NCBI RefSeq assembly: GCF_017310035.1
Contig: NZ_CP022296.1
Span: 2,604,001 to 2,668,000, forward strand
Length of the DNA stretch: 64,000 nt
Direction: 5' to 3'
DNA from: Nocardioides sp. S5
GTDB lineage: Bacteria; Actinomycetota; Actinomycetes; Propionibacteriales; Nocardioidaceae
Shown: positions 32,830 to 34,390 of the stretch, one piece after another
How positions within the stretch are numbered: position 1 is the first letter of the stretch
Layout of the letters: each line of letters opens with the position of its first letter
Program-made: the position numbers and the translations under genes
Notes under the pieces: model-generated
Database searches by the model: none
What the model was told of the DNA's origin: nothing
What the model saw: only the letters and a program-made list of their open reading frames with translations

Positions 32830-33977
32830 GAGCTGTAGGCGCTGTTCTCGTGGACGTAGGCGTGGGTGAGGTCGTTGGTCCAGACGGTCGCGCGGGCGTC
32901 GCCGGACTTGAGGTCGATGGTCACGCTCACCTCTCGGGGCGTGAGGTCGACCGTGGCCGGGTCCTCGGCGGGGGTGGACCGGCGACAGACCCAGACTCCG
33001 TTCATGGCGACGTCGAGGTCGGCGGGGTCGAAGGCCGCGCTGGTGGTGCCGATGGAGGCGAGCACCCGGCCCCAGTTGGGGTCGTTGCCGAAGATCGCGG
33101 CCTTGAAGAGGTTGCTCCGCGCGACGCTGCGGCTCACCTCGACGGCCTCGTCCTCGGTCGCGGCGTGGAGCGTGGTGATGGCGATCTCGTGGTCGGCGCC
33201 CTCGGCGTCCTTGAGCAGCTGCATCGCGAGGTCGGTGCACGCCTGGGTGAGGGCGGCCGTGAAGTCCTCCGGCGTGGGCGTGATGCCGCTGGCGCCGCTG
33301 GCCATCACCGTGACGGTGTCGTTGGTCGACATGCAGCCGTCGGAGTCGAGGCGGTCGAAGCTGACCCGGGTGGCGGCACGCAACGCGGCGTCGAGGTCGG
33401 CGGCCGGCACGACGGCGTCCGTGGTGAGGACCACCAGCATCGTCGCGAGCTGGGGCGCGAGCATCCCGGCGCCCTTGGCCATGCCGCCGATCGACCACCC
33501 GGCGCCCTCGACCACGGTGTTCTTGCTGACCGAGTCGGTGGTCATGATCGCCTCCGCCGCCAGGGCACCGCCGTCCGGCGACAGCGCGTCGGTGGCGGCC
33601 TCGACTCCCGCCAGCAGGTCGTCGCGGTCGTTGGCGAGGCCGATCAGCCCCGTCGAGCAGACGACGACGTCGATCGCGCCGATGCCCAGTCCGTCGGCGA
33701 CCTTCTCGGCCACCGCGTGCGTGGTCTGGAAGCCCTCCGGGCCGGTGTAGCAGTTCGCGCCGCCGGAGTTGAGCACGACCGCGCGCACGACGCCGTCCTT
33801 GACGACCTCCTGGCTCCAGAGGATCGGGTTGGCCTTGCAGCGGTTGGCGGTGAAGACGGTGGCGGAGTCGTGGGTGGGACCCTGGTTGACGACGAGGGCG
33901 AGGTCGCGGCCGCCGCTGGACTTGAGTCCTGCGGCGACGCCGGCGGCGGTGAAGCCGGCGGGGTGGGTGACGGTCAT
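32826..33977 (-). CDS. argJ: Ornithine acetyltransferase / acetylglutamate synthase
   Basis: A 383-residue bifunctional ArgJ that transfers acetyl from acetylornithine to glutamate, recycling the acetyl group. It self-cleaves before the nucleophile threonine of the ATML motif ([13 protein letters not shown]179). [10 protein letters not shown] and [10 protein letters not shown] are also conserved. With ArgJ the operon needs no ArgE. ATGA overlap with the ACT_7 gene upstream and argB downstream. Confidence 0.95.
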
Positions 33978-34390
33978 GATTTCTTCTTCCGGGACGGGTT
34001 GGCGGGGGCGACGGTGTGGCCCTGTCGTCGCCACGCCTCCGCCACGCGCTCCGCGTCGTCCTTGGCCACGAGGATCCAGTCGGTGTCGTAGGTGGAGAGC
34101 GTCAGGACGCTGACCTCCTCCTCCACGAGCGGCCCGAGCAGGCCGTGGAGCACGCCGACGAGGTCGAGGTCGAGGGGGCCCTTGACCGCGAACGCGGTCA
34201 GCGGGCCGCGGTGGACCGACTTCTTCGGCACGCTGCGCGCAGCGCACACGAGCGAGGTCTCGTCGCCGGTCGCGGTGATGGAGAAGATCGAGGACGACTC
34301 GGCCCACTCGGGGATCTCCGCGCCGGGCGCGAGCCGCACCACCGCGAGGGTCTCGGGGAACTGCTCGATCTCGTGGGTGCCTGCAGTCAT
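33974..34390 (-). CDS. ACT_7 (CASTOR-family) ACT-domain protein
   Basis: A 138-residue protein of two ACT-like modules. Features of the ACT_7 family: [16 protein letters not shown] (16-30), [16 protein letters not shown] (34-49), [18 protein letters not shown] (71-88) and [11 protein letters not shown] (98-108). This Pfam family includes the eukaryotic arginine sensors CASTOR1/2. It is wedged between argC and argJ with 4-bp ATGA overlaps on both sides, so it is made in step with the arginine enzymes. A role as arginine (or pathway intermediate) sensor or regulatory subunit is inference. The Lys-rich tail NPSRKKKS is unusual. Confidence 0.8.

Follow-up and report, generated by a model that had tools for sequence, protein, structure and literature searches.

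In the 64,000-nucleotide stretch of the Nocardioides sp. S5 genome analysed herein (the window, positions 2604001-2668000 of a genome of one contig and 4.75 Mb), the arginine biosynthesis operon includes, between argC and argJ, a gene for a 138-residue standalone protein of the ACT_7 family, to which the human arginine sensor CASTOR1 also belongs. The reading that we prefer, with a confidence just short of an even chance, is that this ACT protein senses arginine as a dispensable regulatory subunit of an enzyme early in the arginine pathway, acting as a homodimer that would hold its ligand at the ACT_7-ACT_7 interface. The operon position, the exclusive linkage to arginine genes, the ACT fold and the retained pocket together suggest that the protein regulates the pathway in response to an amino acid, most likely arginine. 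Searches of the open-licence PMC full text yielded no paper on the gene or its bacterial family and no described function, in line with the initial annotation, which knew of none.

The ACT gene overlaps argC and argJ

The open reading frame (ORF) lies on the minus strand, with its ATG at 34390 and its stop codon at 33974-33976, and shares a four-nucleotide ATGA with the gene on either side; at locus L172 both spacings (argC/ACT and ACT/argJ) are -4. The initial annotation had described this same arrangement, leaving the strand unstated. The gene order on the minus strand is argC-ACT-argJ-argB-argD-argF-argR-argG-argH, in which the eight arg genes were identified by NCBIfam models:

33974..34390, minus: half-CASTOR ACT protein, 138 amino acids (A9CJY8-like_N at residues 15-56, ACT_7 at residues 66-119); S94, V95 and D104 are pocket-equivalent, T45 and W105 subfamily-diagnostic
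34387..34390, minus: ATGA, argC stop and ACT start
33974..33977, minus: ATGA, ACT stop and argJ start
34387..35415, minus: argC, N-acetyl-gamma-glutamyl-phosphate reductase, 342 amino acids (TIGR01850, E 3.7e-115)
32826..33977, minus: argJ, bifunctional glutamate N-acetyltransferase/amino-acid acetyltransferase, 383 amino acids (NF003802, E 1.3e-128)
31885..32829, minus: argB, acetylglutamate kinase, 314 amino acids (TIGR00761, E 2.5e-75)
30701..31888, minus: argD, acetylornithine transaminase, 395 amino acids (NF002874, E 1.4e-174)
29781..30704, minus: argF, ornithine carbamoyltransferase, 307 amino acids (NF001986, E 2.1e-115)
29212..29775, minus: argR, arginine repressor, 187 amino acids (NF002880, E 3.4e-69)
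27785..29215, minus: argG, argininosuccinate synthase, 476 amino acids (NF003779, E 5.7e-251)
26361..27785, minus: argH, argininosuccinate lyase, 474 amino acids (TIGR00838, E 1.3e-173)
35416..35430, minus: motif TGTATAGTCATGCAC abutting the argC ATG, a probable promoter -10 region/ARG box

A standalone half-CASTOR protein with a retained pocket

Two Pfam families cover the ACT protein, each well above its curated cut-off of 27 bits: ACT_7 (PF13840; E 2.4e-14, 53.3 bits), as had been proposed from the sequence, and the N-terminal A9CJY8-like_N (PF21631; E 2e-12, 46.8 bits). No further Pfam family was detected at E values up to 10, be it a kinase, an acetyltransferase or a DNA-binding domain. 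By this combination of PF21631 and PF13840 it is an A9CJY8/Atu0741-like standalone ACT protein. The source genome holds two ACT_7 matches at E 0.001, namely this gene and one at 347132 that we take for an aspartokinase.

The nearest solved relatives are Atu0741 (1zhv), whose fold is the one predicted for the ACT protein, and human CASTOR1. The kinship with CASTOR1 that the initial annotation had put forward is confirmed by both sequence and predicted fold, and the predicted model aligns with a single half of CASTOR1 in each match; the four ACT domains in tandem halves that make up a CASTOR chain are not found in this chain of 138 residues. When scored with the family profile, that is, from the side of the bacterial family and not from that of CASTOR1, CASTOR1 reached 77 bits, whereas no aspartokinase exceeded 17; by these profile scores, which stand in place of a CASTOR tree, the standalone half-CASTOR family appears to have a much closer relative in CASTOR1 than in the aspartokinases.

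Two ungapped alignments place residues 80-116 of the ACT protein on CASTOR1 97-133 and residues 72-124 on CASTOR1 272-324. The first pairs S111, V112 and L113 of CASTOR1 with S94, V95 and L96, while the second pairs L273, F275, I280, V281, F303 and D304 with L73, L75, V80, L81, T103 and D104. PMC5020642 mutated eight of these nine positions, leaving out V112; the ACT protein has the identical residue at four of the eight (S111, L113, L273 and D304), a conservative replacement at three and a different residue at one. Ser111 and Asp304, the pocket residues retained as S94 and D104, matter in CASTOR1: D304 mutants lost arginine binding (PMC5187391), and S111A weakened it (PMC5187391) or abolished it (PMC5020642). 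Since each monomer carries equivalents of both pocket halves, a homodimer could form two sites.

Several known systems resemble the ACT protein without matching it. CASTOR1/CASTOR2 (PDB 5i2c, 5gt7, 5gs9), the human cytosolic arginine sensor, shares the ACT_7 family by sequence and fold, whereas the ACT protein, a putative arginine binder, is bacterial, half as long (one half-CASTOR per chain) and has no GATOR2; GATOR1 and GATOR2 are reported to be absent from prokaryotes (PMC5187391). Atu0741 (A9CJY8), a bacterial ACT protein that also stands alone and has no known function, carries Gly at the position of S94 and His at that of W105, and VC0802 of Vibrio (1zvp), likewise without known function, is a weak sequence match (E 3.6e-04). 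Aspartokinase regulatory domains, in most members joined to a kinase, show marginal similarity (2re1 and 3s1t; E 0.045 and 0.99), and Pfam finds no amino-acid kinase domain in the ACT protein. IlvH-type ACT regulatory subunits, and PII in its control of NAGK (ArgB), provide the general precedent of a small separate protein that regulates an amino-acid enzyme, although both belong to other families. The actinobacterial ACT-GNAT acetyltransferases AAPatA and MaKat likewise place an enzyme under amino-acid control through an ACT domain, there fused to a GNAT domain and responding to Asn or Cys (PMC6434083), whereas the ACT protein stands alone and has no C-terminal GNAT domain by Pfam.

Three half-CASTOR relatives unlinked to arg genes (L052, L061 and L067, family code f35) sit at the front of ORFs of about 290 residues; Pfam places a C-terminal GNAT acetyltransferase domain in L052, which makes it the CASTOR-like equivalent of an ACT-GNAT enzyme; L061 and L067 are grouped with it by length and similarity only. 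Structure matches included PDB 9kpg, titled as human CASTOR2 with arginine, in contrast to two 2016 papers in which CASTOR2 showed no detectable arginine binding (PMC5187391, PMC5020642).

The gene forms an arginine-operon branch of its family

Occurrence was surveyed in partly overlapping samples, in which the genus of the window was taken as Nocardioides. With the ACT protein as seed, 40 of 41 retrieved loci showed the order argC-ACT-argJ, the sole exception being L041 of Caenispirillum, the only Pseudomonadota context seen, which has no arg-gene matches within 5 kb. These 41 include L014 and L020, two contigs in the assembly of Nocardioides sp. GY 10113 with identical ACT proteins, possibly an assembly duplicate. 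An even sample of the class (296 genomes) contained PF21631 in 28, with argC-ACT-argJ in 17 of these and no arg gene within about 1.5 kb in the other 11; as argJ was present in 278 of the 296, this arrangement is confined to a minority of the class. The sample of the order yielded PF21631 in 37 of 176 genomes: 18 newly seen loci, 17 of them argC-ACT-argJ and one (L212) not; 12 loci already covered in the class sample; and seven matches without a locus, of which G166, G126, G334 and G358 were checked elsewhere and G429, G507 and G514 left out.

Within the genus the gene was found in 60 of 108 genomes, in every case directly before argJ on the same strand; three genomes had neither argJ nor the gene. 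Its start overlaps argC by four nucleotides in 52 of 62 carriers and its stop overlaps argJ by four in 34 of 62, where the start codon was chosen automatically as that nearest to the start of the window protein. Assembly G315, rated 7% contaminated, contains two ACT-argJ copies, on contigs C5 and C12. Arg-linked genes occur under family codes f1, f2, f21, f34 and f48 and in named Intrasporangiaceae, and a plasmid search gave no match.

A tree of 73 ACT proteins (133 columns, several long rows), built from the class sample, the retrieved loci minus two repeats and six of the 18 new order-level loci, separates 60 arg-linked from 13 unlinked rows by a single branch (support 99/95, present in 98% of bootstrap trees). 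T45 is found in 53 of 55 arg-linked and none of 12 unlinked proteins and W105 in 55 of 55 and one of 12, respectively, while D104 is found in 50 of the 55 and in all 12 (S94 in five of the 12). D104 is therefore a family trait, and W105 and T45 are marks of the arginine-operon branch. As sampled, the ACT protein belongs to an arginine-operon-specific subfamily.

By ACT protein, the window genome is nearest among named species to Nocardioides lacusdianchii (96%) and N. furvisabuli (97%). The ratio of non-synonymous to synonymous substitution rates (dN/dS) came to 0.075 and 0.168 in comparisons with the two nearest named species and to 0.357 in that with N. alpinus; the window copy is intact and under purifying selection. 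The first two values, together with the homologue between argC and argJ in nearly all seeded loci, show that this is not a chance ORF.

Proposed control of an early arginine enzyme

The standalone protein, with two ACT modules, is the equivalent of one half of CASTOR1, and we propose that it probably pairs into a homodimer mimicking the arrangement of the CASTOR1 N- and C-terminal halves. L-arginine would be bound at the ACT_7-ACT_7 interface, between S94/V95 of one subunit and D104 plus main chain of the other. The ACT protein is probably translated from one mRNA together with ArgC and ArgJ, and this, with the overlapping start and stop codons, makes a regulatory subunit its most likely mode of action. 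Binding to an enzyme of the acetyl cycle would differ between the forms with and without arginine, such that flux would fall when arginine is plentiful. The candidate partner is ArgJ, followed by ArgB and ArgC; ArgJ is put first, as a matter of judgement, because it starts and recycles the cycle. Given the patchy presence of the gene, this would be fast, dispensable fine control beside ArgR repression, not an essential step. It may represent a further, new level of feedback by arginine in actinobacteria. Carriers and close relatives without the gene in one genus offer ready-made comparisons; G364, for instance, lacks the gene and is sister to the window pair on the ArgC-ArgJ-ArgB tree.

Three results speak against a straightforward sensor that the cell could not do without. 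The gene is missing from 45 of the 105 argJ-bearing genomes of the genus. On a tree of ArgC-ArgJ-ArgB (106 rows, 60 with the gene and 46 without, four of these outgroup), the gene switches between present and absent at least 14 times, and well-supported branches force 10 of these changes. D104 is replaced in 15 of 61 genus proteins (six times by E, N or Q and nine times by V, L, A, P or T). No site in ArgC, ArgJ or ArgB tracks gene presence, in 842 residue-state tests over 10 supported independent pairs (states held by 10 to 96 of the 106 rows); the best, ArgJ D117, averaged 5.0 pairs in one direction and 0.1 in the opposite one, below the six pairs required to reach 0.05, so the partner cannot be named from co-variation. 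The reading in the initial annotation of a sensor dedicated to this operon is partly supported: the subfamily is exclusively arg-linked as sampled, but many argJ-bearing genomes do without it and D104 varies.

Divergent ArgJ proteins (34-36% identical to that of the window) were seen in six genomes of the genus, at L183-L188 (G310, G306, G345, G362, G296 and G333), with neither an ACT gene nor an argC match in the fetched stretch. At L085 (G026, same family), positions 1768-1944 encode five in-frame 12-residue repeats, GGGSGPRAEEEP-like, which sit inside ArgJ and break its family match in two.

Alternative explanations

The same architecture could serve a sensor that reads not arginine but another amino acid, such as ornithine or glutamate, or an acetylated intermediate, and that regulates ArgJ, ArgB or ArgC; we consider this unlikely, if the least so of the alternatives. 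It would account for the universal D104 and occasional S94 of unlinked relatives, for the Thr that replaces F303 of CASTOR1, and has a parallel in the Asn or Cys response of the ACT-GNAT enzymes (PMC6434083). Against it stands CASTOR1, which shares the key residues and was found to bind arginine, while ornithine, citrulline and lysine did not bind (PMC5020642).

As an improbable alternative, the ACT protein could serve an Arg enzyme as a structural or assembly factor independently of any ligand, like a sensor that kept its partner and lost its ligand. All scored genus proteins retain W105 (61 of 61) and T45 (62 of 62), whereas D104 and S94 vary (S94 is replaced in 26 of 61 and kept in 35), and W105 sets the arg-linked proteins apart from the unlinked ones. 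Yet D104 is retained in 46 of the 61 and in every listed arg-linked row outside Nocardioidaceae. The proteins without D104 may be on their way out, or may have kept a partner role without the ligand.

We give little credence to a factor that acts on gene expression as a co-regulator of ArgR or otherwise, and not on an enzyme. It shares a gene row with argR, and a conserved motif precedes argC: slightly altered versions of the motif abutting the argC ATG were recognised by eye in 11 of 12 other hand-chosen loci, although a strict search by regular expression for a symmetric box matched in one of 12, and the motif suggests a leaderless, ArgR-controlled promoter. Pfam finds no DNA-binding domain, though, and the gene lies between two enzyme genes, away from argR. 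Just as poorly placed is a hitchhiker with an arginine-unrelated function to which the operon merely supplies expression, as the patchy presence and tight argC-argJ junctions of relatives without the gene might suggest; a hitchhiker should sometimes relocate, whereas a single clade occupies this junction under five family codes and nowhere else in the 60 genus carriers.

Patchy presence is probably mostly due to loss

Presence of the gene follows the ArgC-ArgJ-ArgB tree more closely than chance (at least 14 changes vs 34.5 in shuffles). Change counts do not tell loss from gain, but the constant location of the gene is most simply read as a sign of repeated loss, and we infer that the patchiness is mostly loss. 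Distances between ACT proteins, on average 2.8 times those of ArgC-ArgJ-ArgB, correlate with them (Mantel r 0.30, 59 carriers, 0 of 999 permutations as high), which fits partly vertical descent and is compatible with regain by recombination.

In 42 loci with argC and without the gene, the argC-argJ gap was -1 in 23, +2 in 12 and 8-121 nucleotides in seven, and in these last seven no recognisable ACT remnant was seen by eye, without an alignment control. The longest word common to both junctions of a carrier was 4-10 nucleotides in 59 of 61 (without a shuffle control); deletion by slippage between junctions is only an idea, since short words match by chance and ATGA alone provides four. One of 62 fetched carriers (L096) was frameshifted.

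A possible bacterial origin of CASTOR-type sensing

CASTOR1 is said to occur only in several vertebrates and has been proposed to descend from an aspartate kinase and, perhaps, to regulate arginine-synthesis enzymes (PMC5020642), and mammalian sensors are said to give few clues to the ancestral state (PMC10957897). The profile scores, together with a family branch in arginine operons, make the guesses of PMC5020642 testable with a small protein. Tentatively, and with considerable doubt, we suggest that the actinobacterial arg-operon CASTOR-like homodimer is an arginine receptor that directly controls an early arginine enzyme, and that CASTOR sensing predates mTORC1, having begun as half-CASTOR feedback on synthesis and later been tandem-duplicated to give CASTOR1.

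Beyond argC, the window contains on the plus strand (36399-37796) an ORF whose N-terminus is signal-like and whose glycine/aspartate-rich repeats, by eye from the translation, resemble secreted calcium-binding repeats.
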